Shown: positions 9,170 through 34,003, counted from the stretch's first letter. The stretch: DNA of 38,010 bases from Clostridiales bacterium (GCA_029226975.1 JAQXZB010000053.1:1-38010); one strand, 5' to 3'. Translations and numbers: made by a program. Notes: generated by a model from the letters alone, not told the origin.

Positions 9170-9232
9170 AACATTCACCCTATGCATTATTAACCAAATC
9201 GATAATTGAAACAGTGTATTTATCCCATAAGC

Positions 9233-10132
9233 TTAACCTTTAATTGATCCAATCATAACACCCTTTACAAAATGCTTCTGCACGAAAGGATACATAATCC
9301 ATACAGGCAAGCACGAAATCATAATACATGCATACTTTATACTCTCGGACAATGCATCTAAGCCTATTGCACCGCTGTTTGATGATGATGCACTCATGCT
9401 TGTGCTGCTTCCGAAAAGTATTTCCTTTAATACCAGCTGCAGCGGGTATTTGTTTGCATTACTGAGATACAGATATGCCGAGAACCAGTTATTCCAGTTG
9501 GCAATACCGTAATACAGAGCCAGCACCGCAATAATTGATTTTGAGAGGGGCATAACAATTGACCATATAAATCTCAAATTACCGCATCCGTCTATCTGAG
9601 CGGCCTCCAAAAGCTCTTTTGGTATGGAGGTCATAAAAAACGTTCTGGCAATAATTATGTTGTATGCACTTATTGCGCCGGGCAGGATAATTGCAAGCCT
9701 TGTATCAATCAAATGCAAATCCCGTACCAATATATATGTGGGTACAATACCGCCTGAAAACAGCATGGTAAAGGTCAGAACAAACATAAGTATGTTGCCG
9801 CCTGCCAAATCCTTTCTCGAAAGCGGATATGCACAGCATATCGAGAGAAACACCGATAGCGCCGTTCCTGCAACTGTATAGAAAATCGTATTCGCATAGC
9901 CGGTCATTATTCGCGAATCCTCAAAAACTGCCTTGTAGCCCTCTAAACTAAAGCCCTTGGGTAAAAGGAACACCTGTCCCTGCAGAACCTCTCGCGGCTC
10001 TGATATTGATGAAGATATTACATATAAAAGCGGAACAATTACGGCAACCAGTACCAAAAGCATAATAACATTTATTATACTGTAAAAAATTCTGTCTTCT
10101 ATTGCAATTTTTTTATGTTTTGCACGCTTCAT
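9233..10132 (-). CDS. Carbohydrate ABC importer permease (LplC/YtcP type)
   Basis: Inner-membrane subunit of a CUT1-type oligosaccharide importer, about 299 residues with six predicted helices. The coupling-helix (EAA) motif ELLEAAQIDGCGNLRFIWSIVMPLSKS docks to an ATPase. The N-terminal stretch SSSISEPREVLQGQVFLLPKGFSLEGYKAVF and C-terminal VKGVMIGSIKG match the YtcP/LplC subgroup. The start is ambiguous: GTG at 10144 lies one base after AGGAG, too close, while ATG at 10132 is 13 bases away; the latter is chosen. It follows the first permease by 18 bases. No ATPase is encoded nearby, as is common where one shared MsmK/UgpC-type ATPase serves many importers. Confidence 0.9.
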   Translation of the reverse strand: MKRAKHKKIAIEDRIFYSIINVIMLLVLVAVIVPLLYVISSSISEPREVLQGQVFLLPKGFSLEGYKAVFEDSRIMTGYANTIFYTVAGTALSVFLSICCAYPLSRKDLAGGNILMFVLTFTMLFSGGIVPTYILVRDLHLIDTRLAIILPGAISAYNIIIARTFFMTSIPKELLEAAQIDGCGNLRFIWSIVMPLSKSIIAVLALYYGIANWNNWFSAYLYLSNANKYPLQLVLKEILFGSSTSMSASSSNSGAIGLDALSESIKYACIMISCLPVWIMYPFVQKHFVKGVMIGSIKG

Positions 10133-10150
10133 TCTAATTTCCACACTCCT

Positions 10151-11110
10151 TTACCACAAGCTGACATCACTTATCCGCCGCGAGAACTTGTTTGCCATAA
10201 CAATCAGCACCAGGTTAATAACCGAATTGAACAGCCCGATTGCCGTACCGAATGAATAGTCCGACCCCGACACAAGCGCAACCTTATATGAATATGTACT
10301 GATAATTTCACTCGATTGAAGATTTAGAGGATTTTGCATCAAAAGCACCTGTTCATATCCGATAGACATCATTGAGCCAATCTTCAGTATAAACAACATA
10401 ACAAAAGTCGGAAGTACGGACGGGAGATCAATGTACAGTACCTGCTTGAACCTGTTTGCACCGTCTATCTCCGCCGCCTCGTACATATCGGTATCCACAC
10501 TTGCAAGTGCGGCAATATATATAATGGAGTTCCAGCCTATATTCTGCCAGATAAGCGACCATACATAAATATGAGGAAATGCCTTTGGCTCCGACCATAT
10601 ATCTATAGCTTCAACGCCTATCATATCGCATACTTTTCCGTAAAGACCGATTTTTGTGTTGAATATCTGCGCCAGTACCCCGACCATTACTACAGTCGAA
10701 ATAAAATGCGGCATATAGGAAATCATCTGTACCGTTTTCCTGTATGAGCGGGAATATATTGCATTGAGAAGCAACGCAAATATAAGAGTTATCGCCGGTT
10801 CAACAAGTATCTGGTACCCCGAAAGTCTTATCGTGTTTAAAAACACTTCTGTGAATTTGGGTATACTGAATAATTTTCTGAAGTTATCCAGACCTACAAA
10901 TTCGCTTCCCCATATTCCGCCCGAAGCCGTATAATCCTTAAAGGCAATCTGCAGTCCGAGCATAGGATAATAATTAAACACAAGCAAAAAGGCAAAAGGA
11001 AGAAGCAAAAGCAAATACAAGTCCCAATTCCTGCGTATGCTCTTTTTCAAATAAGCTTTTTGGCTTGCATTTCTGCTTTTTCGCAAAGCAATTTTTGAAT
11101 TTTTATTCAT
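10151..11110 (-). CDS. Carbohydrate ABC importer permease (LplB/YteP type)
   Basis: First permease of the importer, 319 residues, six helices. NWDLYLLLLLPFAFLLVFNYYPMLGLQIAFKDY is the hallmark N-terminus of LplB/YteP permeases (first helix then YYPM-GL-IAFKDY); the EAA loop is YEAAEIDGANRFKQVLYIDLPSVLP, and the end RRISDVSLW is family-typical. The open frame runs 16 codons further upstream, but AAAGGAT eight bases before ATG 11110 fixes the start. A strong hairpin separates it from the binding-protein gene, which would let the lipoprotein be made in excess of the permeases. Confidence 0.92.
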   Translation of the reverse strand: MNKNSKIALRKSRNASQKAYLKKSIRRNWDLYLLLLLPFAFLLVFNYYPMLGLQIAFKDYTASGGIWGSEFVGLDNFRKLFSIPKFTEVFLNTIRLSGYQILVEPAITLIFALLLNAIYSRSYRKTVQMISYMPHFISTVVMVGVLAQIFNTKIGLYGKVCDMIGVEAIDIWSEPKAFPHIYVWSLIWQNIGWNSIIYIAALASVDTDMYEAAEIDGANRFKQVLYIDLPSVLPTFVMLFILKIGSMMSIGYEQVLLMQNPLNLQSSEIISTYSYKVALVSGSDYSFGTAIGLFNSVINLVLIVMANKFSRRISDVSLW

Positions 11111-11138
11111 AAAATCTATCCTTTCGTTATGATGTTTC

Positions 11139-11175
11139 AAACGGGCAACAGAGGGCAATGCCTCTGCTGCCGTTT
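11139..11175. other. Intercistronic hairpin between binding protein and permease genes
   Basis: AAACGGGCAACAGAGG (11139-11154) pairs with CCTCTGCTGCCGTTT (11161-11175) around a 6-base loop, with one bulge and one wobble or mismatch. On the minus strand it falls 12 bases after the lipoprotein stop and is not followed by a T-run, so it is better read as an mRNA-stabilising or partial-attenuation element than a full terminator, as known between malE and malF. Confidence 0.65.
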
Positions 11176-11186
11176 ATCATTTCATG

Positions 11187-12860
11187 TTATTTACCCGCTT
11201 CCGCTCTGAATGCATCATAGCCCTTTTGAGCCAGCTCTAAGTATCTGTCAACATTCAGGCTTTTAAGACTGTTTTGGAAATCCTCCCAGTCACTGTCGGC
11301 GCTCTTTTTGCCTGTGATAAATAACGGTACATTTTCCTTGATGAAATTCGATATATCCGTCTGAAGTCCGTTAAATTCCTTCATATCCTCAAGATCGAGA
11401 AGCATCTGCGATATGACAAAGCTGTTTTTCGGTCCCTTGCCTTCATACGCTTTTAGTGCCTTTGCCTTAAAATACTCGCCGTCAAGCTCGTCGCCGTCCC
11501 ATGCCATGGTGTCAAGTATATCCGATGAGAGGAATGCCGGATTAAGCTGGAACCAGTGCGAATTCTGTACTGTGCCGTAAGGAAGTATGGGCAATATTCT
11601 TGCTTCAAAGCCGAGATCACCGAAAAGCGGCTTAGTATTTTCATCAGCCGGCTTCCAGTCCGTTCCCTCTACGCCGAAACGCGCAAATATTGACGCTTCC
11701 TCCGACATCATGAAGTCCAAAAATCTGAATGCCGCAACGGGATTGTCACAATACTTTGTGATAAAGCCCGAGCTGTTTGCCGAAAAATCTCCGACTTTTG
11801 CATAGGCTGCACCCTTAGGCCCTTTAAGCGGCGGAAGAGCAACAAAATCTCTAAGTCTTTCCGAGCCTGCGGGGAACAGATTATCCGGTGAGCTTGAAGT
11901 GAATGCACCTATTGTCAGCTCATCTGAGGAACAAAGGGAACGAAGTACATCATTGCTTTGTGTATAGCTCTGAACATCAACCAATCCCTCCTGTGCCATT
12001 TTCGCAATATATTTAAGTCCTTCTCTGTAATCCTGTGAGGTATAGTTCAGTGAGATTTTATAGTTGTCATCAACAACAAATCCGTCTCTGAAATCATCAT
12101 AAATGAATGAGTTCATCAAGAAGTCGACCGGCTTCTCATTCCAGCCCCCCGTACTTCCCGTAAAGCCTATTTCATCTGCCTTTCCGTTGCCGTTGGGGTC
12201 CTTGGTCCTAAACGCTCTCATTACATCCGCAAACTCATCAATTGTTTCCGGCATTGAAAGACCCAGCTTATCCAGCCATGTCTTATTTATAAATGACTTT
12301 CCGCAGTAATAGTTTCCTTGCTGTTCGATAATAACCGGCATAAAGTATTTTTTACCGTCGGCAGTTTTTAAATTACCCTCGATATTTTCAACGATTGTCT
12401 TTTCGCAAGCCTCTTTTATCCAATAGCCGTACTTATCCATGTAGTCGGTAAGATCCAGGAATACTCCGTCACTTCCGTACTGCAAAATCGTACTCTTATC
12501 CAAACCAAAGCCGCATATTACATCCGGCAGCTCCGTTCCCGATGCAAGCATAACATTGAGCTTATCATAACCGCCGCTTGAGGGAAACTCGTAAAACTCA
12601 ATATTTATGCCTGTCTTTTCCTCAAGGTACTTGGTAAATGCATTGGTCTTATAATCCTTAACCTTTGAGGTTGCCAATACACCCACTGTCAGCGTAACAG
12701 GCTCCTTTACGATAGGCAGCTCTCCGGGAGCGGTAACATTCTCATCGACCGCTATCGCACCGACCGTTTCATTCTGATTTTTGCCTCCGCAGCCTGCGGC
12801 CGCAAGCATTAAGCTTGCAGCACACAGCAGTGCGAATACTGATTTTAATTTCTTTTTCAT
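11187..12860 (-). CDS. Oligosaccharide-binding lipoprotein of the ABC importer (LipO/YtcQ-like)
   Basis: Extracellular solute-binding lipoprotein, 557 residues, feeding the two downstream permeases. It starts MKKKLKSVFALLCAASLMLA with lipobox AAAGC (Cys24). The ~500-residue size and features such as NVMLASGTELPDVICGF, FLDLTDYMDKYGYWI and FRTKDPNGNGKADEIGFTG (a calcium-binding-like D-x-N-G-N-G-K-A-D loop) match the large LipO/YtcQ-type binding proteins that accompany LplB/LplC permeases. The frame is open 54 codons further upstream into the preceding gene, but AAGGAAGG before ATG 12860 and the signal sequence define the start. The cargo is probably xylo-oligosaccharides, given the enzymes encoded upstream in the same array; this is inference. 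Confidence 0.92.
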   Translation of the reverse strand: MKKKLKSVFALLCAASLMLAAAGCGGKNQNETVGAIAVDENVTAPGELPIVKEPVTLTVGVLATSKVKDYKTNAFTKYLEEKTGINIEFYEFPSSGGYDKLNVMLASGTELPDVICGFGLDKSTILQYGSDGVFLDLTDYMDKYGYWIKEACEKTIVENIEGNLKTADGKKYFMPVIIEQQGNYYCGKSFINKTWLDKLGLSMPETIDEFADVMRAFRTKDPNGNGKADEIGFTGSTGGWNEKPVDFLMNSFIYDDFRDGFVVDDNYKISLNYTSQDYREGLKYIAKMAQEGLVDVQSYTQSNDVLRSLCSSDELTIGAFTSSSPDNLFPAGSERLRDFVALPPLKGPKGAAYAKVGDFSANSSGFITKYCDNPVAAFRFLDFMMSEEASIFARFGVEGTDWKPADENTKPLFGDLGFEARILPILPYGTVQNSHWFQLNPAFLSSDILDTMAWDGDELDGEYFKAKALKAYEGKGPKNSFVISQMLLDLEDMKEFNGLQTDISNFIKENVPLFITGKKSADSDWEDFQNSLKSLNVDRYLELAQKGYDAFRAEAGK

Positions 12861-12873
12861 ATACTTGCCTTCC

Positions 12874-13911
12874 TTACTCATTATTGCTGTTGATGAATAC
12901 CGCGCCTTGAATGCTGTCATAATTAACCTGTGCACCCAGCATTTCAGAAACAAATCTAATCGGTACCATTGTCCGTTCGTTAATAATCTGTATGGGAACA
13001 TCACATATATACTCCTCATCATTAACGGTTACAACGCTGCTGCCTATGGGCATAATCATCAGCTTTCCGTTTCCGATTACATACACAGACCTGTTTTCCT
13101 CGTTCCATGCCACATCAGCATCCAAAAGCTCAAATATTTTACGCATGGGGACAAGAACTCTGTCCTCAACGATTGTGGGATTTACATCATCAAATATAAC
13201 CTTATAACTGTTTACTGAGATTTTCAGCACATCTTTTCCGTTCCACTTTTTATATGCGTCCCCAAGCTTCAGCTTTATGTTTCCGTAGCTTGTGCTGTTT
13301 ACATAACACTCGGTGGAATCCGACTGCCATGTGACGCATGATACTCTCTGCCCTTTATCATTTGCGTCATTTACCTGGACATCAAAGCCTATAACCAAAT
13401 CATCGGCGGGCAATATATCATGCCAACAGCATTTGAGCTCCACACTGTATGTTCCGTCATCGTTTGTTTTTGCCACGCCTTCAAAGTCGCTGGGTGCTGA
13501 AATACCGTTACTGTGTGACCCGCTCGCCGAAACACGATATTGCTTATCGTTGTTATCGTTTATCGTACTCTTTGAGTTGTCCTCATCGATAAATACTTCC
13601 ACACTGTCCTTCTGCCACTCCTCCGCTCCGACAATCGAAAGGGTCTTTTCGTCAACGAGTGCATAAACATACAATGCTTCATAGTCCCATGCCAGCCATA
13701 CATTGGCTCTGCTGCCGTCTGCAATAGTGCAGTTTGCCTCAAGCATATGATTTACATGCATAGGCTCTCCCGTATAAATGCTGTCCTTCTCACCGTCGAG
13801 AACCGGTGTGCCGTAAAACACCTCCGGTATCTCTGTACTCGTTTCGGCACTTGCCCATGTCCAACCGGCAAAAAAGCAGGCAAGCACCAATATACCAATA
13901 ATTTTTTTCAT
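12874..13911 (-). CDS. Secreted CBM9 protein with copper-amine-oxidase-like domain
   Basis: Secreted non-catalytic protein, 345 residues. Signal peptide 1-22 (cut near ASA-E). CBM9-like domain at about 30-218: GTPVLDGEKDSIY, VWLAWDYEALYVYALVDEKT, DSVEVFIDEDNSK and YRVSASG follow the family 9 pattern known from xylanases, where it binds reducing ends of xylan or cellulose. CuAO-N1-like domain at about 232-342, with the paired hairpins RVLVPMRKIFELLDADVAWN and RTMVPIRFVSEMLGAQVNYD; in Gram-positive secreted proteins this domain is a non-enzymatic, possibly wall- or polymer-associated module. ATG 13911 has AGGAGAAG upstream; a longer frame to 14004 runs through a structured spacer and is rejected. 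It ends 13 bases before the importer lipoprotein. It probably keeps xylan or released ends near the cell. Confidence 0.85.
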   Translation of the reverse strand: MKKIIGILVLACFFAGWTWASAETSTEIPEVFYGTPVLDGEKDSIYTGEPMHVNHMLEANCTIADGSRANVWLAWDYEALYVYALVDEKTLSIVGAEEWQKDSVEVFIDEDNSKSTINDNNDKQYRVSASGSHSNGISAPSDFEGVAKTNDDGTYSVELKCCWHDILPADDLVIGFDVQVNDANDKGQRVSCVTWQSDSTECYVNSTSYGNIKLKLGDAYKKWNGKDVLKISVNSYKVIFDDVNPTIVEDRVLVPMRKIFELLDADVAWNEENRSVYVIGNGKLMIMPIGSSVVTVNDEEYICDVPIQIINERTMVPIRFVSEMLGAQVNYDSIQGAVFINSNNE

Positions 13912-13931
13912 ATTTCTTCTCCTGGACTTAT

Positions 13932-14005
13932 ATTGCCAAGGTGCGGGTATGGACCTTGTCCATACCCCCCATTTTAGGGCTTTGTATGCCCTGCCCTTTG
14001 GCAAT
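13932..14005. other. Nested three-way-junction inverted repeat between genes
   Basis: Within a 97-base spacer, an outer stem ATTGCCAA (13932-13939) / TTGGCAAT (13998-14005) encloses two inner hairpins: GGGTATGGAC (13945-13954) / GTCCATACCC (13958-13967), a perfect 10-base stem with a 3-base loop, and AGGGC (13976-13980) / GCCCT (13988-13992). It is more GC-rich than the flanking spacer. There is no T-run on the minus strand. It could be a stabilising 3' element for the upstream mRNA, an attenuator, or a dispersed intergenic repeat; no terminal duplication was found that would prove mobility. Confidence 0.6.
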
Positions 14006-14008
14006 TTG

Positions 14009-15937
14009 TTAGTTTGAAAGATTGAAATCCTCTACTGCGGTAGTATAAATCGGAGCATTACCATTGCCCAGGTCTCTGCCTACCGGTATGGGAGCAAGAG
14101 TATCCCCTCTCCACATATATAAGTATGTTGCAGGGTTCTTTGTAAGATCACCTGTGATTGGAATACTCAAATTAGACTCATAAATTCCGCTCATTGTTTT
14201 GTTGTTGCATGAAACCGAAAGCATTCTGCCTGTATCTGCGTCACGATGCGTTACCGCCAAAAGTACATTGGGGATTTCCTGCAGGCATACATTTGTGATG
14301 TCTATGTTCATATTCTTTCCCATATAGTCAATAATCGACACGTTTTCATCGCTTCTGATAAGGCTTATATCATCAAGATATAGATATGTCAGCGGGAAGT
14401 AGTCACCCAACTTATCCGGCAAATCTTTATTGAACAGTGCCAGAACAATCAATTCGGCATAGCCCTCACTGTTGAAATCTTCAGGCTTTAAAGTAATATT
14501 GGCTGTATATTCTCTCCAATAGGGTTCAAGCTCGCCAAGAGTTATCAATGTGCCTTCCTTCCTTGCATTATCATACCAGCCTTTAACCTGTTCATAACCG
14601 TTTGCACTGTTGTCAGCTTCCTCGGGAACTACGAATGCACATAATCCGCCCTTGAAGCCTGTTGCATATGAACCTGTGTTGTTTGACGCTTTCAGCCTGA
14701 AGGTATAGCTTGTTTCTGCGTCTGTAAGCTCAGCAGTTCCGCTCGGATAATCAAGCCGGCTTTTCAGCCAATCATTTTTATTCAGTCTTAATCTTGCACC
14801 TACAAGGTCATTACCACCCCAATCGGTACGGGAAGCACATCTTATACTGTACTGACCTGCCGGCGAAGCACCATGGTATCCCCTGTCTATTGAAGCTGAA
14901 GTGCCGGCTGAAGCATATCTGTTTGTTGCGGTATAATCCACTGTATTTATAACACGAGGCTCTTGATATGAGTTCTTATATCCGGGGAATGCCGACCATG
15001 TTCCGTCCTCATAGTCCCCCGGTGCTTTTGTCAATGTTATATCATAAGCAAATTGATCTTCCTTGCCTGCAGGAACGGATGCCGAAGTTCTGCCTGTTTT
15101 AAATGTAGTATCATCCTCGAAATCCCAGTTCTTGCCGTACCTTATCTGAGTGGAAAACGGTTCTTTATACATGGGATCTGTGTACCAACCCCTATCTGCC
15201 GGAGCAATCTTGATATTGTCAAAGCAGATGAATTTATTTGCCTCATAGGTGCTCCAGTTTCCTATATTTAATATAACACTTCCGTTTTCATACATATCTG
15301 CACTGGGTGTAAACTCCGCTATAACTCTTACCCAGCCTTCTTCCTTTGCAACGCTTGTTGCCCATGTCCCATCGGTTTTCTGATGACTGAGATATGTCCT
15401 ATTTGTACTCTTTGTCCAGTCGGTTCTTGTTGTATTAAAATCCGACGGTTTTGTACAAGCAACAAAAGTGTCAATTCCCCATGAAGTTGTTTGATATATA
15501 TCGGCACCTATCATATAGCTTCTTCCCGGAACAAGCTGGGTATCCGACAACTTTATTGACATTCCCAAAGCGCTGCTTTGCGCCCAAGCATTTTGATGCG
15601 TTTTTACATATGCAAAGCCGTTGCCTCCGTCTGTCGGGATAGGATTGATCTCCGGAAGTGCAAGTGCCGGATCGCTCAACGGACAATCCGCATACTGTAC
15701 CACATGAGGGCTTCCGTATATGCCGTGCTTTTTCACATATGTGCAGTGCCATGCACCGGAGTCGATTGTGTCATTTGTATTATCCCAATCCGTAAAATAC
15801 GCAACATCATTTGTCGACTCAAAGTCCCATGTTAATGTTCCGTCATTCGCTCTTGTGGCTGCGAATGCTGTGCTTGTTACCAGCATTGAAGCCGCTGCCA
15901 AAGCTGCCGCCAATGCTTTTCCCTTGTTCTTTTTCAT
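14009..15937 (-). CDS. Secreted protein with two WDFE modules, paralogue of the xylanase N-terminus
   Basis: Secreted, non-catalytic protein of 642 residues, not in a family I can name. Signal peptide 1-27 (ends AFA-A). Module one at about 33-245 starts DGTLTWDFESTNDVAYF and ends ICFDNIKI; module two at about 270-527 starts GKNWDFED and ends YLYLDDISL. Each has an internal [LV]-G-x-x-[IL]-[RK]-L strand, which with the DNI/DDI end suggests a jelly-roll carbohydrate-binding fold (CBM4/9/22-like), by inference. A last domain at about 530-620 (ADTGRMLSVS, ATYLYMWRGDTLAPI) matches one in the xylanase encoded upstream. Order and motifs equal residues 1-600 of that xylanase, so this looks like a duplicated, enzyme-free version. 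Strong AAGGAGGAATAAAAAATG start. It probably binds the same polymer at the cell surface. Confidence 0.8.
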   Translation of the reverse strand: MKKNKGKALAAALAAASMLVTSTAFAATRANDGTLTWDFESTNDVAYFTDWDNTNDTIDSGAWHCTYVKKHGIYGSPHVVQYADCPLSDPALALPEINPIPTDGGNGFAYVKTHQNAWAQSSALGMSIKLSDTQLVPGRSYMIGADIYQTTSWGIDTFVACTKPSDFNTTRTDWTKSTNRTYLSHQKTDGTWATSVAKEEGWVRVIAEFTPSADMYENGSVILNIGNWSTYEANKFICFDNIKIAPADRGWYTDPMYKEPFSTQIRYGKNWDFEDDTTFKTGRTSASVPAGKEDQFAYDITLTKAPGDYEDGTWSAFPGYKNSYQEPRVINTVDYTATNRYASAGTSASIDRGYHGASPAGQYSIRCASRTDWGGNDLVGARLRLNKNDWLKSRLDYPSGTAELTDAETSYTFRLKASNNTGSYATGFKGGLCAFVVPEEADNSANGYEQVKGWYDNARKEGTLITLGELEPYWREYTANITLKPEDFNSEGYAELIVLALFNKDLPDKLGDYFPLTYLYLDDISLIRSDENVSIIDYMGKNMNIDITNVCLQEIPNVLLAVTHRDADTGRMLSVSCNNKTMSGIYESNLSIPITGDLTKNPATYLYMWRGDTLAPIPVGRDLGNGNAPIYTTAVEDFNLSN

Positions 15938-15973
15938 TTTTTATTCCTCCTTAAAAAATTTTTTATTATTTTA

Positions 15974-15990
15974 TTAGTCATTACGACTAA
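15974..15990. other. Small hairpin in spacer after the giant xylanase
   Basis: TTAGTC (15974-15979) and GACTAA (15985-15990) form a 6-base stem with a 5-base loop in the 89-base AT-rich spacer. On the minus strand it is followed by an A-rich stretch rather than T's, so it is not a convincing terminator. It may be a weak processing or pause site. Confidence 0.3.
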
Positions 15991-16026
15991 AAATTTAACA
16001 TTATAGATATGCAGAACAACTGCTCA

Positions 16027-19000
16027 TTATTGTGCCAACACAATTTCTATATCATCAATATACATTTCTGCCGCCGTACCCTTTGCCATGACAGCAGAAT
16101 TATCGAGACTCGGCATTTGGGCTATATACAGCAGGGTATGACCGTTTTTGAAATCCTCTTCTGTCGGCGTAATCTGTGCGGTGTATGTCTGCCAGTTCTC
16201 GGACGCCGTTCCGCACGATGCCGTACCGGTCTTAATATAATTATTGATTATATTATACTGTACCGCATTTGTATCCGGATTTGCCGTCGCCGCATAAAGC
16301 TTATTGCCTGTGACATTCTTTGCTTTTGCCTTAAACTTTACATTGTATGTTTTGCCTATCTTTACCTGTTTATCACCGAGCTCTATCCTCATTCCCAAGG
16401 AATATGCGTCTATTCCCGGGTTTGTGGATACCTTTGCACAGCTAATTCCGTCCTCCTCTGCAATAACCGGCTGTGAATAGGAGATTATCGAATAGTCGGT
16501 AGTCACACTGCTCCATTTTCCCGTATCGAGAATCTTTGACACATCATCCTCATCATTAAAGCTCCACCTTGTCTTGTCAAAGCCGGCATACATTTTAGGA
16601 TACATCTGCTTAAGCTCTTCCTCGGTTTTTACCAAAGCGTAATACTGGGGCTTTGCCTTGTAATTACGGTCAAACACTCCGGCGTAATCCGTTTTGGGGA
16701 ACCATGAATCGGTGTTAAAATGTGACCAGCCGTCCGCCGTTGTCCAGAAGGTTACCCGGTTAATTGAATCTGAGTATTCCTTGTATAAATCAAACAGTTC
16801 CTTATACATCATTGTCTGCTCAAATTCACGTTTTTGCGGTATTCCGTTTTCAAAAAGCTTAACGCGCGCACCGGACTCGGCAAATGAATATGCGGTTATA
16901 TCAAACTCCGTTATATCTATCGCCGTTCCCAGAGATGCGTATTTTGCCAGGGATTCTCTTGCGTTTTGTATGGGGAAATCAACGGTGTAATGGGACTGAA
17001 GACCGATGCTGTCCACAAGCGGTCTGCCGCCGTAGTTTCCTTCGTCATTTACATTTTTGACTATCGTGTAGATTCTGTTACGCTTTATAGGCTCATCCTC
17101 AAAGTCATTATAGCGAAGCTCCGCTGTGGGATCTGCGTCCCTGGCATACTTAAACGCATAGCTTACATAGTCCTTGCCTATAACTCCCAGCCAGTTTGCA
17201 CCCGCATTGGAATATATAGGATCTGTGCTTAGGTCGTTATTATTTCTTTTTGCCGCCTCGTTTACCACATCCCATACCGGAACATGCCAATCCCCATAAT
17301 CCTGCGTTATCTCATACTCGCTTGCGTCGCCTTTGCCGTTAAAGTGGTTTATAACCTTTGTTATGTATTCCTTCATAAAGCTCAGCAGCTCATCACGGGT
17401 TTTGCCTTCGGTATATTTGTTGTAACCGCCAACTTCCCATATCAGAGCGTGTCCGGCAATATCGGTGATTCCGTTATCGTAACAGAATTTCATCAGTTTA
17501 TCCGCTCCCATAAAGCTGTATTTGCCGCCCGCTTTGGGATATATGGTGCTCATCTTGAAAAATCCGTCTGCAACCACCGAATTAAAATGCTTCTTTGTAA
17601 GTGCATCCCGACTTGAGTTTTTAAGCCATTGATTACTCTTTAGGCATGAGCCTATTTTAAAGTAATCCTTATAGACATCCTTTAATGCCGCCAAGTCATC
17701 CTCTATAGGCAGCTGCTCGCTTGACGGATAGAGGTTTGCGGTTGACGATATTTTTGACAAATAATCCGTATCGTCATAAAAGCTTCCGGTTTTGTCCATG
17801 GAAATCATCAAATCGTCCACATAAAACGGAACATTGCAGTCATCTGCTCCCACATTGTCCTTGCTTGTTGTAATGTTGAGCTTAACCTCTGCTTCATCCT
17901 TAATGTTATACCGGGACAAATCAATCTCACCGGACAGCTTCGTCCAATTATTGTTATCCGCATAAACATATGTATGCCAATTTGTAAGGGATGGCCATTC
18001 CGTTGTTCCGTCCTCAAGGGGTATCACCATTCTGAGTATATACCTTACATAATCATTGACGCTCTCATCATTCTTCACATATACCGAAACTGACAGCTTT
18101 CCGTCTCTGAATCGTTTATCGGACACTGTAAAGTTTGCCCAGCCACCGGCTCTGTCATGAACATACAGACAATTATCACCGCTGTTTGCCTGAATGGTAT
18201 TGGTTATATCATATCCCATATTACTTGTGAAGGGTATAAAATCAAGCTTACCCGCCTCGAAGCTGTTTCGTATCTTAAAGGTACCGTTATTATCAACATT
18301 TGCCACCTTATATGATACCATATCCTCAAATTCCGATTTTGAATATTCGCCTATAACTCCGCCGTTTTCTCCGTTGGACTTGCTTTTTAAATACAGCTTA
18401 ACCGAATATTCTTCACCATACGGCATGGTTATATCAAAGCCGCTGTCTCCGGATACCGTTGAATAAATTGCACCGTATCTATCGAATACCTTTGCCGCAT
18501 ACACAAACTCTCCCGCATCGTCAGCCGGCTCGGTAAAGGTCACCGCCGCCGTAAGGTTTCCGTCAGTCTGTACGGTAGGATTTTCATTCTCCTCATAGCA
18601 GTTACCTTCAACATCCACCCATTTTGCCCGCCAAGCTCTTGACACCTTAACCTCATTATCAAAGATATATGCATCGGTAATGGGGACGTATGTGTTATTA
18701 TGCCACAACAGGAACTTCACACAAGGATTATCCAAAGCACTGTCTATTTTTATATTATAGCTGAGATTAGCCTCTTTGTTTATCTTTCTGTTTACGGCAC
18801 TGAGAGAAACAAGTCTTGTTCCGTCATATAACGGCACATACCCTACAGCATCCTTTAATGTATCACTCATACACTGCATATAAAAGCTAAAGGATTCGTT
18901 CTCCTTGGGTGCGCAGTCAGTACCATTGCCCGTAAAGCTTATATTGTCAAGGTAAAGATATGCGTTTGCCGCAAATCCTCCGTCATTGATATTGTCCAGT

Positions 19001-20436
19001 GCATTCTCAATGCGGTTTGTTTCGATTATAGCCAGTGTCACATATCCGTCATCGCTAAAATCCGAGTCCTCAAGTGTTATATTGCCGCTGAAGCTTCCCC
19101 AATAATTAAACACAGTTCCAAGGTCAATTTTTTTCACGCTGCCAAGCCAATCGATTACTGCCTGCTTATCGCTTTTAGACTCTTCAAGCGAATTTTTGCT
19201 AAAGATTTGCTTTGGAATATCCTGCGCTCCGTCAGGCAAAACAACTGCGCATATATCGCCCCGTTCCTTATTTGATGCCGCATAAAAGCTCAAAGTATAC
19301 TCCCCGGCTTTAAAATACTCTTTGGATAACCGTATTCTTGTACCCAAGTACATCGCATTCCAGCCGTAACCGGATGCCGGATTTACCCTTACTCTCACGC
19401 ACTGCTCACTGCCGTTGGCAGGTCTGCCGCAGTAGCCTTTTGTTTGATTATTCTTAAATTGCGATACATTTACATAACATGGATTATTGTAGCTGTATTG
19501 CTCCATGTTCGAGGTCAGAGCCGACCAATTACCGTCTGCATATGCACCGCAGGATATGCTTTCGTCCTCTGCCGCTGCTCCCTCAAAATCCCATGCGCTG
19601 CCGTATTTGAGCTTTGTAAGCATTTTGTTTTCAGACACCGGTCTTATCACTATATTATCAAGGTACAGTTTCTCCTTTGCGTCCACATTGCCGCCGGCTA
19701 TGTTTCCGCCGGCAATGTAAAATGCCGTATATCCGTCCTCATACATTTCCCATGTTGAGGTAATACTTGTTGTAATATGTTTCCATGCCGTCCCGCCTGC
19801 ACTTCCGACATGCACCGCATTGTCCGAGGTAAACCAAGGAACCTCAGTGCCTGAAGTCGGTCTTTCGGAGGGCTTTCCAAAGCCTGCATAAACATCCCTT
19901 GTTCCGCTTGTCAATGATGATAAAACATCAAATTCAAGTGTATATTCTCTGCCCGCTATAATCTCCGACTGTGACAGTCTTATAACCATTCCCAGAGTTC
20001 TTCCGCCGATGCCGTCACCGGTTGACACTGCCGCACAGTACGAACCGCCGTTTTCCAGTGGAACGCCGCTTCCCGTGTAACCGTCATTAGTATCCGAAAC
20101 AATGCCCCAGGTAGATCTGCCTATATTTTCAAATTTCACCTGATAGGGCTGACCGTATGCCGGCCATGCAAAGCTGTTTGTAGCTTTTGCAAACTGATGA
20201 CTCCATGCGCCGGAATTGAAGGTATCGTATCCTTTTACATATCCGTAGTTTGATATGGTTTTATCAAAGAATGCAATATCGTCAGTAGCTTCAAAATCCC
20301 AGCTTAAGGTGCCGTCTTGATTTTCTGCCGCATGGGATATACCGCTTACGCCTCCTATTGAAGCGGCAAGCTGTGATACAACCACAGCGGCACAGACAAA
20401 GGCTATACATACCTTTTTCAACAAAAACTTTTTCAT
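16027..20436 (-). CDS. Giant multimodular GH10 endo-1,4-beta-xylanase
   Basis: Secreted xylanase of 1469 residues cutting internal beta-1,4-xylosyl links. Order: signal peptide (1-37); WDFE module 1 (about 42-265); WDFE module 2 (282-502); FLLWHN-type beta domain (518-592); Ig-like stretch (605-690); CBM22/4-like module (718-882); GH10 barrel (913-1285); third WDFE-type module (1291-1466). Catalytic acid is Glu1060 in WDVVNEA and nucleophile Glu1177 in DITEFD; QSHY His1149 and GHALIW His996 are present. Unusually, the -2 subsite motif (family ENxMK) reads DGFFK (957-961), and the His after HALIW is Glu1001. No dockerin or SLH domain is visible, so anchoring must be by other means. GTG 20442 is two codons upstream; ATG 20436 with GAGGAG is preferred. 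Confidence 0.93.
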   Translation of the reverse strand: MKKFLLKKVCIAFVCAAVVVSQLAASIGGVSGISHAAENQDGTLSWDFEATDDIAFFDKTISNYGYVKGYDTFNSGAWSHQFAKATNSFAWPAYGQPYQVKFENIGRSTWGIVSDTNDGYTGSGVPLENGGSYCAAVSTGDGIGGRTLGMVIRLSQSEIIAGREYTLEFDVLSSLTSGTRDVYAGFGKPSERPTSGTEVPWFTSDNAVHVGSAGGTAWKHITTSITSTWEMYEDGYTAFYIAGGNIAGGNVDAKEKLYLDNIVIRPVSENKMLTKLKYGSAWDFEGAAAEDESISCGAYADGNWSALTSNMEQYSYNNPCYVNVSQFKNNQTKGYCGRPANGSEQCVRVRVNPASGYGWNAMYLGTRIRLSKEYFKAGEYTLSFYAASNKERGDICAVVLPDGAQDIPKQIFSKNSLEESKSDKQAVIDWLGSVKKIDLGTVFNYWGSFSGNITLEDSDFSDDGYVTLAIIETNRIENALDNINDGGFAANAYLYLDNISFTGNGTDCAPKENESFSFYMQCMSDTLKDAVGYVPLYDGTRLVSLSAVNRKINKEANLSYNIKIDSALDNPCVKFLLWHNNTYVPITDAYIFDNEVKVSRAWRAKWVDVEGNCYEENENPTVQTDGNLTAAVTFTEPADDAGEFVYAAKVFDRYGAIYSTVSGDSGFDITMPYGEEYSVKLYLKSKSNGENGGVIGEYSKSEFEDMVSYKVANVDNNGTFKIRNSFEAGKLDFIPFTSNMGYDITNTIQANSGDNCLYVHDRAGGWANFTVSDKRFRDGKLSVSVYVKNDESVNDYVRYILRMVIPLEDGTTEWPSLTNWHTYVYADNNNWTKLSGEIDLSRYNIKDEAEVKLNITTSKDNVGADDCNVPFYVDDLMISMDKTGSFYDDTDYLSKISSTANLYPSSEQLPIEDDLAALKDVYKDYFKIGSCLKSNQWLKNSSRDALTKKHFNSVVADGFFKMSTIYPKAGGKYSFMGADKLMKFCYDNGITDIAGHALIWEVGGYNKYTEGKTRDELLSFMKEYITKVINHFNGKGDASEYEITQDYGDWHVPVWDVVNEAAKRNNNDLSTDPIYSNAGANWLGVIGKDYVSYAFKYARDADPTAELRYNDFEDEPIKRNRIYTIVKNVNDEGNYGGRPLVDSIGLQSHYTVDFPIQNARESLAKYASLGTAIDITEFDITAYSFAESGARVKLFENGIPQKREFEQTMMYKELFDLYKEYSDSINRVTFWTTADGWSHFNTDSWFPKTDYAGVFDRNYKAKPQYYALVKTEEELKQMYPKMYAGFDKTRWSFNDEDDVSKILDTGKWSSVTTDYSIISYSQPVIAEEDGISCAKVSTNPGIDAYSLGMRIELGDKQVKIGKTYNVKFKAKAKNVTGNKLYAATANPDTNAVQYNIINNYIKTGTASCGTASENWQTYTAQITPTEEDFKNGHTLLYIAQMPSLDNSAVMAKGTAAEMYIDDIEIVLAQ

Positions 20437-20450
20437 ATTCACTCCTCGTT

Positions 20451-22214
20451 TCAGTCCGCAACCTTCTTTAATGTAATTTCATCTGCGCTCTCAATTTCAC
20501 CTACTTCAATCACTTCCTGACTGCCCAAACCGTCAATATCGCTTTGCGTCACCGTAATTACGCACATTCCGCAGCCTTGATTTATATATGCCCTACCCTT
20601 TGCCGTTCCTATTCTTACCTGTGCCGTATCGGCATCCTGTGCCGTAGTAAATTCAACAAGATACTGTCCCGGTCCGAATGTATCGAGCGCCGACTTTATA
20701 TTCCTGTTTCCGTTTACAAGGTTTTCACCGTTATTGCAGAACTTTCCTATGTTCTGTCGTCTTTCGGATATTATATTTCCCGATTCATCGGTGTAATAAA
20801 TAGCTAAATATGAGTTTTCATCTGCGGTATTGGGAATTCTTCCGGATACACTCACCGAATTTAGTCCGCTTGTCATTTCCGTTTCGGTTTTTCCGATAAC
20901 GGTTTCACCGCTCTCGTTTATCATGGACAACACCGCCCAAATACTGCAATCATCCGGTGCATATACATTACCTTTAACCGTTATGCTTCTTTTCGCCAGC
21001 TTTTCAAGGGAATTAAATCTTTCAGGCTCTACCTGTTTCTTTATGCTTAACTCCTTTATCAGCACAGCTTCCGTTTCATTACCGTCAAACACTATTTTAA
21101 ACTTGCCTATGTCCTTGGCATCGGTTGAGCCTCTGGTTTCTCCGGAAACAAAGGGATCGTCGGGGCTTACCGAAAATGATGTCTTAACGGTTTCATATTC
21201 ACCGCCGCCTTCATTTGTAACACTGAACAGCTCCTGTGTACCGTTTAGAATACCTTTTACGGTAACCGGCGACTGGGATTTAATCTTGACCGAGAAATCG
21301 AGGGAGTTTTGCGTCTCCTCCTCGGTATTTTCCGTCAAGGTTACATTATCAAAATATATTGCTTCATATCTTTCAAGCTGTTCTGCCATGCCCAGCCAAA
21401 GAACGGTATAGCCGTCCTCGAATTTATCTGCCCCGGGAACTATTTCAACACTGAATTTTGACCAGTATCTCTTAACATTCCCAAAAGATTTTGCACTTGG
21501 CGGACACCAGGGCGCATTTGCGTCATTGGCATTGGGCACTTCCGCCGACGGCTTTGTAAGCTGACAATACAGCGGTCTTGATGCTGTGCTGTTCATTGCG
21601 TAAAAGCTTAATGTATAGCTCTTTCCCACCTGCAAATCACTGTCGGAAAGCTTTATTCTCATTCCCAGTGAGCCCATATGCCAGTCATTTTTTCCCGTTC
21701 TGCTGCGCACACATTTTGTACTTCCCTCAGACGCCGGTTCCCTGACTCCGGGATCTGTTCCGCCGCTTGAGCTTGCCGACAATTCCGAATTGTAATATTC
21801 AACTTCCTCAACGCTAATCTGCGTCGGTCTTGTCCAGCTTATTATATTTGAGTCAAACATATTACACCATTTGTTGGGTTCAAGAGTTGTAGATACATCA
21901 CTGCTGTCCTCAAAGTCCCAAAAAACTGTATGTTCACTCTTGACTTCCTCATACAAATCTCCCCCGGCTGCTGCCGAAACCTCGAAATCGCCTCCGTTTT
22001 GCGGCGTTATCTTCATAGCGGCATCCAAAAGGCTGATACCCAATTTTGCATTTTTGTCAGCCGACCAGTTGGTTTTTGATGAGCTTACGGTATTTTTCAT
22101 CACCTCAAGCTCCTGAGTAACATCATGTGTTGCGACACTCATTCCGTATGCGCATGTACAAGACATAGCCGTCATTGCCGCAACAGCTGCCGATAAAATT
22201 CCCTTTAACTTCAT
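20451..22214 (-). CDS. Secreted WDFE-module protein, no catalytic domain
   Basis: Secreted protein of 587 residues, function unassigned. Signal peptide 1-24 (AAVAAMTAMSCTCAYG). A helical or linker segment follows, then one WDFE module at about 97-294: VFWDFEDSSDVSTTLEPNKW, SLGMRIKLSDSDLQVGKSYT and IYFDNVTLTEN are the start, middle and end marks shared with the neighbouring xylanase. The remaining 290 residues are beta-rich, with a last domain (about 500-587) beginning FGPGQYLVEFTTA that resembles small ligand-binding sandwiches in clostridial surface proteins. Start ATG 22214 follows GGAGGTAGGAG; the longer frame upstream overlaps the previous gene and lacks a signal sequence. It sits between two GH10 genes and is probably a polymer-binding accessory. 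Confidence 0.75.
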   Translation of the reverse strand: MKLKGILSAAVAAMTAMSCTCAYGMSVATHDVTQELEVMKNTVSSSKTNWSADKNAKLGISLLDAAMKITPQNGGDFEVSAAAGGDLYEEVKSEHTVFWDFEDSSDVSTTLEPNKWCNMFDSNIISWTRPTQISVEEVEYYNSELSASSSGGTDPGVREPASEGSTKCVRSRTGKNDWHMGSLGMRIKLSDSDLQVGKSYTLSFYAMNSTASRPLYCQLTKPSAEVPNANDANAPWCPPSAKSFGNVKRYWSKFSVEIVPGADKFEDGYTVLWLGMAEQLERYEAIYFDNVTLTENTEEETQNSLDFSVKIKSQSPVTVKGILNGTQELFSVTNEGGGEYETVKTSFSVSPDDPFVSGETRGSTDAKDIGKFKIVFDGNETEAVLIKELSIKKQVEPERFNSLEKLAKRSITVKGNVYAPDDCSIWAVLSMINESGETVIGKTETEMTSGLNSVSVSGRIPNTADENSYLAIYYTDESGNIISERRQNIGKFCNNGENLVNGNRNIKSALDTFGPGQYLVEFTTAQDADTAQVRIGTAKGRAYINQGCGMCVITVTQSDIDGLGSQEVIEVGEIESADEITLKKVAD

Positions 22215-22236: not shown

Positions 22237-24852
22237 TTAGTCTCTTTCCGCCTCGGCAAAGCCGCTGCCGCCCGTTCCGCTGGCAATATTTATCATATTT
22301 CTCGCATCGCTGAACGAAGCGTCAAATCCCATCATCTTACATATATCCATTATCGGAACATATGTCTTTTGGTCTTTGATTATTATGTCATTATTCATTG
22401 TGTAGGGCTTAAAACCTCTGATTTGTGCCTTTCCCTCGCCAAACTCCATGTATGAGTCGGCTATTATTGCGGCATATTTATCTTTGCTTTTTACAAATCT
22501 CACACCGATACTGTCAAACAGCTTCTCTATTTCACAATAGGTTGTATCGCCGTTTTCAAACATCTCACCGTCTTCAAATTCAAGCTGTACACCGTCTACA
22601 GCCACTCTTGTAACCGATGTATCCTCTTTAAGACAATTGTTGTAATAATATTTCTCATCCACAATTGCCCAATACAAAGGCTTTGCCTGATAGTCTCTGT
22701 CAAACAGACCGGGGAAATCCACATGACCGAAGCCTAAGTTATTGAGGTGTGTCTGCGAGTCAAAGAATGACCAGAAGGTCACCCGGTCGATTTTGTCCGA
22801 ATACTCTTTGAATATGTTAAACATTTCACGAGCCAGCTCTGCCTGAGCAAACTCAACCTCCTTAGGCAAGCCGTAATCATAAAGTGCCTTTTTCTCCGCT
22901 GTCTGCTTTGTTGTATATGCGGATATATCAAACTCTGTTATATCAAAATCCACACCCAACGAAGCATATTTCTCAAATGCTGCCCTCATCTGCGACGGCA
23001 CCACATCGACCGAAAGATGGGACTGTATACCCAAAGTGTCAACTCGGCAGCCCGAATCGAGCAGGTTCTTCATAAGTATGTATACGGCGTCTCTTTTACC
23101 GCTGCGGTAATTCTCAAAATCGTTATATCTCAGCTTGACATCGTCATATCCCACTTCATCGGCAAACTGAAATGCGTAGTTTACATATTCCTTGCCCAAA
23201 ATGTTGAAAAATCCGCTGGCGTGTCTGTAGTTTTCATTTCCCTCAACCACGGCTTCATTGACTACATCCCACACAGGTATATGCCAGTCCGAATAATCCA
23301 CGCCCGGCTGATATTCGGACGGATCTCCGTCACCCTCATAATGCTTCATTACCTTTGTTATATATTCCTTCATGAAGGCAAGCAAGCTGTCGCGGTCAAT
23401 ATAGTTTCCGTTTTCATCAAGCGTATACGGTTTTGTCATGCTCAGCTCCCATATGAGGTTATGACCTACAACATCATCAATTCCGTTCTTCTGTGCAAAT
23501 TCCATCAGCCAATCACCGTTGCTGAAATCATAATCGGTTCTGTTTCCCTTGGTCAGTATTAACGGCATTTTGAAATATCCGTTTGAAACGACGGAATTAA
23601 AATGCTTTGTTACCAACTGGTTGAGACGAGTTTCGTTTGCACCCATTTCAGCTCCTCTGTAGCCGTAAAGATTTGCACCTATTTTAAAATAGTCTTTAAA
23701 CACATCCTTAAGGCTTGGTATGTCCTGCTGTACATCCTTGACAAATGCGCTTACGGCAACAGGGGTATCGGAAAGAGAGGGATCTCTGTCTGCCGGATTA
23801 TAATCCATATCATCGTAAAATTCACCCGGCTTATCACCCGACACAACCAAATCATCTACCCAATATTCCGCAAAGTTAGTATCTCCTATGGAAATCTGAA
23901 ATCCCACATAACCCTTTACATCATACTGGGAAACATCTATCGTTCCTTCAAGATAGTGCCATTCATCGTCCGTAACCGTCAGATACCCTGATACATACGG
24001 CCATACCTTGCCGCCCACCGCATCAATATCAGCCTGTACCCTAAAATCACAGCTTGCCAAGCTCGGACTTTTCTTCACCCAACAGGAAACCTTTATTTTA
24101 CATTCGGGATCTACTCCGTTTAAATATACTCGGCACGCCTCCCATGATTGATCTCTGTCATAGCAGTGCATTGAATATTTTCCCGTATGAGCCTTTACTT
24201 TATCCGTAATTTCAAACAAGCATCCCGAAGAAAGATTGAACATTTCAAAGGTTCCCGTTTCAAATGACGCTCTTTTTAACAGGTTTCCGTCATACTTTAT
24301 TTCGGGGACCGGCAACACCGCCGACTCAGCGGTGTTTTTGCTTGAAGTCACCTTAAAGTCATCAAGGAGAAATCCAACCTGCTTTCCTCCTTTTTCCGCG
24401 GATATTCCTATTACAATATCGCCGTCTGTATTGATCAGTCGTGTATTGATATGTCCCGAAATCTTTGCATAAGTGTTGTTCGACACCGGCTTGCTGTCAA
24501 GAGTGTATGCACTCTCTTTTCCGTTTGCCGTAACATATGCAATCATTTTAAATGTGACGTCGCTCTCCTCAGGCTTTACCCATACCGAAATATCCGTTTC
24601 TGCTTTTTGCTGCAAACTGCTAAGTGCCGTACGCAGAACCGTTCCCTTTTCGTCCGGTGTTATCCTAAGTGCATGCTCACTGCTTCTGCCTCCCTCTGCA
24701 ACCTCTGTCTTGAGATTTACATCCATATCATTTCCGTTTTCAAATGTCAAATCATAGATAGTATAAGGCGCATCGGCAGCAGCCCACACCGCATTTGCGT
24801 TTACACTGCACAGCATTGCAGCAGCCAAAATACCTCCGATAAGTTTACGCAT
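22237..24852 (-). CDS. GH10 xylanase with N-terminal CBM22-like and C-terminal CuAO-like modules
   Basis: Secreted endo-xylanase of 871 residues. Signal peptide 1-25; a beta-sandwich at about 28-170 (YDLTFENGND to LLDDFKVTS); a CBM22/4-like module at about 186-340 (RASFETGTFEMF to YWVDDLVVSG); GH10 barrel at about 378-735; CuAO-N1-like domain at about 745-858. Catalytic Glu533 (WDVVNEA) and nucleophile Glu640 (DITEFD) are intact, with His464 (GHNLIW) and His612 (QSH). As in the giant xylanase, the -2 subsite motif is altered (NGYFK, 424-428, for ENxMK) and the motif after HNLIW is Glu469 rather than His. ATG 24852 overlaps the preceding stop by one base (TAATG) with GAGGGTG upstream, indicating tight coupling to the DUF4340 gene. 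Confidence 0.93.
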   Translation of the reverse strand: MRKLIGGILAAAMLCSVNANAVWAAADAPYTIYDLTFENGNDMDVNLKTEVAEGGRSSEHALRITPDEKGTVLRTALSSLQQKAETDISVWVKPEESDVTFKMIAYVTANGKESAYTLDSKPVSNNTYAKISGHINTRLINTDGDIVIGISAEKGGKQVGFLLDDFKVTSSKNTAESAVLPVPEIKYDGNLLKRASFETGTFEMFNLSSGCLFEITDKVKAHTGKYSMHCYDRDQSWEACRVYLNGVDPECKIKVSCWVKKSPSLASCDFRVQADIDAVGGKVWPYVSGYLTVTDDEWHYLEGTIDVSQYDVKGYVGFQISIGDTNFAEYWVDDLVVSGDKPGEFYDDMDYNPADRDPSLSDTPVAVSAFVKDVQQDIPSLKDVFKDYFKIGANLYGYRGAEMGANETRLNQLVTKHFNSVVSNGYFKMPLILTKGNRTDYDFSNGDWLMEFAQKNGIDDVVGHNLIWELSMTKPYTLDENGNYIDRDSLLAFMKEYITKVMKHYEGDGDPSEYQPGVDYSDWHIPVWDVVNEAVVEGNENYRHASGFFNILGKEYVNYAFQFADEVGYDDVKLRYNDFENYRSGKRDAVYILMKNLLDSGCRVDTLGIQSHLSVDVVPSQMRAAFEKYASLGVDFDITEFDISAYTTKQTAEKKALYDYGLPKEVEFAQAELAREMFNIFKEYSDKIDRVTFWSFFDSQTHLNNLGFGHVDFPGLFDRDYQAKPLYWAIVDEKYYYNNCLKEDTSVTRVAVDGVQLEFEDGEMFENGDTTYCEIEKLFDSIGVRFVKSKDKYAAIIADSYMEFGEGKAQIRGFKPYTMNNDIIIKDQKTYVPIMDICKMMGFDASFSDARNMINIASGTGGSGFAEAERD

Positions 24853-25745
24853 TAAAACACACCCTCTCTGTATAATTTAATAAATTTAAAATAGTCGTTT
24901 GAAGTACGGTAAATTTCGTCACTGCCGTCAAGCATTATATAAACTCCGTTTTCCGTTTCATTTCCCATGATTATCTTATAATAATCATCCCTGCCGCAGG
25001 CCGCAACCGTTACGATTTCACTGTCGGCATTAAAGCCGTATTTTTCTTTGTTCTCATCAGTGGCCGCTATTACCTCCAGCGAATACATTCCGCCCATATA
25101 CCGCGTCACTCCCGACTTGACCTTTTCAGTCGGTACATCCGTTACGGTATCGCCGCAGACAAATCTCCAGGACCTCTGCTCCTTAGACAGGGAAAATGCC
25201 TTCTCCCCGCTCACCGTAATACTGTCTATACTGTCATAGTCAACTCCCAATATGAAGCTGTCCTCTGCCATATACCGTTTGCTTTTCATCTTATCTCCCA
25301 CATCTGTGTATACGGTGTATATATTGTCATGGCTGTCTGCAAGGTAGTATTCAGTCCCCGGAGGCGTTTTATCTCCCAAGCAAAATATTATGCTGTCTCC
25401 GTCCGTTGTCATATAAGTAACAACCGCCGACGGATTTAAAAGTCCGTATTTATCATCAGACACCCCTTGCCCAATCAGCTTACCGCTGAAATTCAGCAAT
25501 GTATCCATTATGTTTGTAACAGCATAATCGGCAGTTTTTTCACTGTCCTTTACTCTCCAGCCGTTATCATTGACAGCCGTCCATTCCTCAGAGCTGTTTT
25601 TAAATGTAATGCTTTTTATATCCTCTGCCTTAAAGTCGGCCAAATCAACCCGTTCTTCCTGCGATTTTTCCGGTAATGACAATATAATTGCCGCCGCCGA
25701 AAAAACCAATAATATGGCCGATAATACCGTTATTCTCTTTCTCAA
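24852..25745 (-). CDS. DUF4340 protein, partner of the Gld-type ABC system
   Basis: Membrane-anchored extracytoplasmic protein, 297 residues, with one N-terminal helix (ITVLSAILLVFSAAAIILSL). The segment KYGLLNPSAVVTYMTTDGDS followed by LGDKTPPGTEYYL is the hallmark repeat of DUF4340 (Y-G-L-x-x-P and G-x-x-x-P-x-G-x-x-Y-Y), a domain found next to GldG-like permeases; its biochemical role is unknown. It starts at TTG 25745 behind GGAGG, overlapping the upstream stop as TTGA. The gene is the third of a compact trio with the ATPase and the permease/GldG fusion, and runs straight into a xylanase gene. Confidence 0.8.
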   Translation of the reverse strand: MRKRITVLSAILLVFSAAAIILSLPEKSQEERVDLADFKAEDIKSITFKNSSEEWTAVNDNGWRVKDSEKTADYAVTNIMDTLLNFSGKLIGQGVSDDKYGLLNPSAVVTYMTTDGDSIIFCLGDKTPPGTEYYLADSHDNIYTVYTDVGDKMKSKRYMAEDSFILGVDYDSIDSITVSGEKAFSLSKEQRSWRFVCGDTVTDVPTEKVKSGVTRYMGGMYSLEVIAATDENKEKYGFNADSEIVTVAACGRDDYYKIIMGNETENGVYIMLDGSDEIYRTSNDYFKFIKLYREGVF

Positions 25746-28722: not shown

Positions 28723-28725
28723 AAC

Positions 28726-31431: not shown

Positions 31432-31443
31432 GACTAATCCTCC

Positions 31444-33942: not shown

Positions 33943-34003
33943 GCTGTTCACTATAACATAACTGCATTTAAAAAAATAGCTATGTTAAATCTCCTTTCTG
34001 CAC

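Follow-up and report, generated by a model that had tools for sequence, protein, structure and literature searches.

The window considered here is a 38,010-nucleotide stretch of DNA (GCA_029226975.1 JAQXZB010000053.1:1-38010) from an uncultured gut Clostridia bacterium, in which three neighbouring genes on the minus strand (14009-22214) encode secreted proteins that between them carry six copies of a module of 180-263 residues. One of the three is a giant xylanase of glycoside hydrolase family 10 (GH10), which also has an ordinary domain resembling carbohydrate-binding module (CBM) family 22, and the other two are enzyme-free. All three are open frames with N-termini that read as ordinary signal peptides, and the modules, here called X1 to X3, Y1, Y2 and Z1, lie within them as follows.

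14009-15937, minus strand: enzyme-free secreted protein of 642 residues with signal peptide, Y1, Y2 and a small C-terminal beta domain; no Pfam match
14351-15139, minus strand: module Y2, the longest copy, in the 642-residue protein
15197-15847, minus strand: module Y1, in the 642-residue protein
16027-20442, minus strand: giant secreted xylanase of 1471 residues with signal peptide, X1, X2, a small beta domain, the CBM22-like domain, GH10 and X3
16030-16572, minus strand: module X3, the shortest copy, immediately C-terminal to GH10
16627-17685, minus strand: GH10 catalytic domain of the giant xylanase, with the WDVVNEA and DITEFD motifs
17794-18285, minus strand: ordinary CBM22-like domain of the giant xylanase, N-terminal to GH10, with an equivalent of the cleft tryptophan W53
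18931-19605, minus strand: module X2, in the N-terminal part of the giant xylanase
19639-20319, minus strand: module X1, in the N-terminal part of the giant xylanase
20451-22214, minus strand: enzyme-free secreted protein with Z1, of 587 residues if the start is the Met at 22214 (the mechanical open reading frame extends to 22286)
21321-21944, minus strand: module Z1, in the 587-residue protein

It is beyond doubt that the six copies are homologous. All-against-all BLASTP links them at E values down to 5e-19, and when a profile of any five is used to find the sixth the copies are recovered at E 1.7e-24, 1.9e-22, 1.1e-19, 9.2e-18, 1.5e-11 and 9.3e-28, whilst the best of 6000 shuffled decoys reaches only E 0.0044. 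Pairwise identity among them is nevertheless low, at about 25-30%. A profile search of the whole 2.8-Mb assembly returns exactly the six copies of the window and none elsewhere in the genome. A first, sequence-only reading had already placed the six copies in these three secreted proteins and noted their attachment to GH10, and both points hold, with Pfam recognising GH10 in the giant xylanase at E 4.5e-62; this is the only clear assignment that Pfam and NCBIfam make for the xylanase, and the 642-residue protein is left unassigned by both.

Seven further copies come from three related genomes (G008, G264 and G439, which with the window genome make up the four genomes compared below), giving a set of 13. 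Invariant in all 13 are W-x-F, the tryptophan of D-x-G-x-W, the L of the [IV]-[RKE]-L strand, the Y of Y-T-L-S-F, the W of W-x-x-[YF], the G of D-G-Y-T and the D of Y-x-D-[DNE]-[IV]. The layout is looser than the sequence-only reading described, with the supposed S-L-G-M element replaced in places by V-S-A, I-S-A, V-T-A or M-G-I, and the D-x-G-x-W tryptophan had not been listed at all. Conservation of the Z1 protein in the syntenic relatives extends along its full length, at 28-29% identity across about 640 residues (E about 1e-50).

The only recurrent and plausible family for these modules is Pfam PF02018 (CBM_4_9), which 9 of the 13 members match at E <= 1. The window copies are all under the gathering cut-off of 25.9 bits, with Z1 the highest at 21.4 bits, the matches span only part of the profile, and neither Pfam nor NCBIfam assigns any of them above threshold, whilst two of the copies in G439 exceed the PF02018 cut-off at 28.1 and 26.8 bits. 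When the module profile is compared with one of CBM4_9/22 domains drawn from this genome and these loci, the probability is 93% (E 2.4e-7) over the part from the G-S-x-C strand through to the last strand, with a reversed-profile control at 0.7% (E 0.084), and a tool comparison gives 77% (E 2.1e-5). Against PDB sequences the 13-copy profile recovers no CBM22 chain at E <= 10 and nothing of any kind under E 0.3, the best chain being a weak CBM4 match at E 0.31; the cluster's ordinary CBM22 domain reaches PDB CBM22 by sequence (E 1.4e-5). A tree with ordinary CBM4_9 domains resolves the modules neither as one clade nor otherwise. No chain of CBM86, the xylan-binding module of a Roseburia xylanase, was recognised in the sequence or fold lists, a result that excludes nothing. 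At the level of sequence the kinship to PF02018 and CBM22 is weak but real.

The same kinship is apparent in the motifs. The F-E opening, G-x-x-Y-T-L-S-F, W-x-x-[YF] and Y-x-D-[DN]-[IV] of the modules correspond to SFE, [IL].VS.[YW]VK, [EN]W..L and Y.VDDL in the ordinary CBM22 domains of the locus. That of the neighbouring xylanase (22237-24852) runs SFETG ... HTGKYSMHCYDRDQSW ... KIKVSCWVKK ... EWHYLEG ... EYWVDDLVV, and the elements of Z1 are WDFED ... EGSTKCVRSRTGKNDW ... GKSYTLSFYAMN ... YWSKFSVEI ... AIYFDNVTL. Every element of the signature that had been proposed falls on a core strand of a known CBM22/CBM_4_9 domain. With PF02018 the modules share both the order and the hallmark residues of the core strands. 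Peculiar to the modules are the W before D-F-E, a [LVM]-[GS]-x-[RK]-[IV]-[RK]-L-S segment that is longer, and 40-100 extra residues whose structure is poorly predicted; these are loops inserted at two places, behind the first strand and ahead of the W-x-x-[YF] strand.

AlphaFold models of Z1 and X2, made separately from the 13-row alignment, are both beta-sandwiches that are confident in the core, with a predicted local distance difference test score (pLDDT) of 75 and a predicted template modelling score (pTM) of 0.77 for Z1, and 73 and 0.78 for X2. The best PDB neighbour of the Z1 model is CBM22-1 of Paenibacillus barcinonensis Xyn10C (4xup; Z 13.8, root-mean-square deviation 3.0 over 146 residues) and that of X2 is the CBM22 of C. 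thermocellum Xyn10B (1h6x; Z 12.6, deviation 2.3 over 135 residues), with CBM4, CBM16, CBM27 and CBM61 the next neighbours. Foldseek returns CBM4 1gui at E 3.6e-6 and CBM22 4xup at E 6.7e-6. With CBM22 (CtXyn10B CBM22-2, 1dyo/1h6x; PbXyn10C CBM22-1, 4xup) the modules share the predicted fold (Z 12.6-13.8), and also the F-E opening, a GxxS-x-x-V strand, the C-terminal Y-x-D-[DN] and the GH10 neighbourhood, but they are 25-100 residues longer and under the family thresholds by sequence. With CBM4 (TmCBM4-2 of laminarinase 16A, 1gui; Rhodothermus Xyn10A CBM4-2, 1k42) they share the fold (Z 11.9 and about 12.5) and an L-x-x-G-K-x-Y-T-[IL]-S-F strand, but have longer loops and no significant sequence match. 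A wholly new fold is rejected on the strength of these searches. The sandwich of CBM4/9/22 type that had been suggested from strand order is thus borne out by the models, whereas the idea that the signature is unlike that of any known CBM does not stand. Judged by the test set in that reading, whether the profile lands within a CBM family already known, a new family fails at the Pfam level; at the CAZy level it might still hold, given that the window copies score under the Pfam cut-off.

The modules lie in a xylan-utilisation cluster whose members include two binding proteins, a GH4 and a sugar kinase. Positions in the cluster are as follows.

5915-7456, minus strand: response regulator of the two-component regulator
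7472-9187, minus strand: sensor kinase of the two-component regulator
9233-10144, minus strand: ABC sugar permease, uptake part of the cluster
10151-11158, minus strand: second ABC sugar permease, uptake part of the cluster
11187-13022, minus strand: solute-binding protein, uptake part of the cluster
12874-14004, minus strand: secreted CBM9_1 and Cu-amine-oxidase-N protein
22237-24852, minus strand: second secreted GH10 xylanase, with CBM4_9-like, CBM22 and GH10 domains and a Cu-amine-oxidase-N-like C-terminus, without a module of the six-copy kind
24852-33951, minus strand: DUF4340 protein, fused ABC-2/GldG-like transporter, ABC ATPase and two SLH-domain proteins

In all four genomes the modules are beside or inside GH10 xylanases, within one collinear cluster that includes the ABC sugar importer and the two-component regulator, and in all four they are fused to GH10, either in one frame or across an A9 run that is described below. 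G008 keeps the window order from an SLH-like protein (28726-31431) to the sensor kinase, G439 keeps it over the part read and reaches the response regulator, and G264 keeps it over the part read of a shorter contig. Conservation is uneven along the cluster: the binding protein and permeases share about 60% identity with those of the relatives, the other GH10 about 41% and the Z1 protein about 28%. The set of DUF4340, ABC_transp_aux and ABC ATPase genes (a gliding-type auxiliary ABC transporter) beside the SLH proteins also stays collinear with the xylan cluster elsewhere, through 31431. In the window the ABC-2 permease and GldG-like auxiliary protein are in one frame (25742-27814), and they are separate genes in the three relatives.

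The distribution of the modules is narrow. Among roughly 880 different genomes of the phylum that were searched, only G008, G264 and G439 are clear carriers, the only match in a scan of named genomes is the metagenome-assembled genome RGIG9115 (G008) from water deer rectum, and a search of IMG/VR for the modules found none. Weak matches in G036, G069 and G085 (E 1e-5 to 6e-3) resemble ordinary CBM4_9 domains and were not used; that at L030 (G085:C60), from another family of the same order, is a CBM fragment resembling the modules (E 1.3e-5) and has a TAG in frame. As G439 and G264 come from other families within the class, and the genomes closest to them are without modules, the simplest account is probably horizontal transfer of the whole xylan cluster (L041, L047, L048), with misbinned contigs a possible alternative explanation for its presence in single genomes of different families.

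It is likely, on the evidence of fold, motif and context, that the six copies belong to the CBM4/9/16/22 group as carbohydrate-binding beta-sandwich modules, that they are divergent and enlarged and stand nearest to CBM22, that their most likely ligand is a plant-fibre beta-glycan, with xylan the first candidate, and that they tether the xylanase and its enzyme-free companions. The core strands would be those of CBM22 and the extra length would be due to the loop insertions. With three modules (two N-terminal, one C-terminal) as well as an ordinary CBM22, the giant xylanase would be held on its substrate at several points, and the modules may fix both it and its enzyme-free companions to xylan-rich fibre by a number of weak contacts. 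The two enzyme-free proteins probably coat or loosen the fibre, or retain released chains near the cell, and oligosaccharide products would then enter via the ABC importer of the same cluster. Carbohydrate binding, xylan as the ligand and multivalent tethering are what we infer here, with xylan binding plausible from the genomic context.

Several observations weigh against this view. The alignments behind the models have only 13 rows and pLDDT is below 50 in the long loops, and the same fold lists include MAM domains, toxin receptor-binding domains and ephrin-receptor domains, none of which are CBMs. The ligand cleft, whose residues in CBM22 we take to be R25, W53, Y103 and E138 (CtCBM22-2 numbering), is only partly kept. 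The position aligned with W53 is W in 7 of the 13 copies (in Z1 the W of N-D-W-H) and F in 2, but X1 and X3 have Ile there and one copy from a relative has Ile or Leu; E138 has no conserved counterpart, the aligned position not being Glu in the sequence alignment, and R25 and Y103 fall in loops of uncertain alignment, with Y103 not recognisably kept. Since E138 is not conserved and X1 and X3 carry Ile, it may be that some copies have another ligand or none, and X1 and X3 are the best candidates for a loss of binding. Were binding lost in some or all copies, they would be degenerate sandwich spacers giving only length and stability, for which the very low identity between copies, the lost tryptophans and the much poorer conservation of the module proteins than of the neighbouring transporter genes all speak. 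This is unlikely. The two enzyme-free proteins are made up largely of such domains, and their retention, which for the Z1 protein extends to all four genomes, would be hard to explain if the domains were mere spacers.

A partly kept cleft is also what might be expected if the modules bind a sugar other than xylan, such as mixed-linkage glucan, xyloglucan, mannan, pectic side chains, or a surface glycan of the producer by which the proteins would be anchored. CBM4 and CBM16, which bind beta-glucans and mannan, are also near to the modules in structure, and Pfam finds no SLH domain or other anchor in the three carriers, with two SLH proteins in the same cluster. Yet the polysaccharide-chain-cleaving enzymes beside the modules are GH10, to which modules are fused in every genome compared, and a non-xylan ligand is a secondary possibility, though a better one than spacers. 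The least probable account is that of a CBM family whose fold or sequence type is outside all those known. The sub-threshold Pfam scores of the window copies, the lack of a PDB sequence match under E 0.3 and the confinement of the modules to a few Clostridia genomes would suit it, but with CBM22 and CBM4 as the fold neighbours, a motif that is that of CBM_4_9, and relatives' copies that pass the PF02018 cut-off it is largely refuted at both the fold and Pfam levels. As the motif elements fall on CBM22 core strands and the predicted fold is a sandwich, the modules are better placed as a divergent branch of CBM4/9/16/22.

The presence of enzyme-free proteins beside the xylanase has a further aspect. 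Residues 1-617 of the 642-residue protein match residues 3-588 of the giant xylanase (BLASTP E 1.7e-37), without the CBM22, GH10 and X3 domains, and the tree pairs X1 with Y1 (100/96) and X2 with Y2 (96/93), showing from sequence that the protein derives from the N-terminal half of the xylanase. No counterpart of its gene lies between the xylanase and CBM9_1 genes in G008 or G439. In all three relatives the xylanase frame is instead broken at the same spot, by an A9 run and then CAG inside the CBM22 domain just before GH10.

G008, L041:13570-13600: A9 frame break
G439, L047, minus strand near base 9110: A9 frame break
G264, L039:2121-2145: A9 frame break

The loci of G008 and G439, each of about 20 kb, contain no other A9 run, and the window gene has none at the corresponding place (GTATATGTGAAGAATGAT). 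The frame upstream of the run stops a few codons later and the downstream frame continues through GH10, where it is under purifying selection, with a ratio of nonsynonymous to synonymous rates (dN/dS) of about 0.09-0.18 and dS > 1. Both frames would be joined if one A were inserted during transcription, or if the ribosome shifted by -1 on A-AAA-AAC, and the break, found in three divergent genomes, is a likely case of programmed slippage or -1 frameshifting. Bacteria are known to use transcriptional slippage at runs of A or T (references in PMC3711429). Synonymous conservation around the run is not clearly over the gene background (9/14 against 110/216 columns), so no stimulating RNA structure is indicated there.

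Slippage at the A9 run would also give an enzyme-free product, as the duplicated gene does in the window, and it is an attractive but unproven idea that the cluster needs both enzyme-free and enzyme-linked forms of the binding arm. Taken further, both forms would be required, with the three relatives obtaining them through A9 slippage, so that a single gene gives both the full xylanase and a shortened binding protein, and the window species through duplication of the arm (14009-15937). If the arm modules do bind, their sequence would make them a new CBM family in CAZy. As a whole this combination is tentative and less likely than not to hold.

The modules add to the CBM4/9/16/22 group a rare, uncharacterised and enlarged branch, of narrow and patchy range, that is found only in the xylan cluster of a few gut Clostridia, and they reveal enzyme-free binding proteins as part of such Gram-positive clusters. 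Should slippage indeed occur in the relatives, it would be a case of recoding that adjusts how much binding arm is made relative to enzyme for a secreted glycoside hydrolase.

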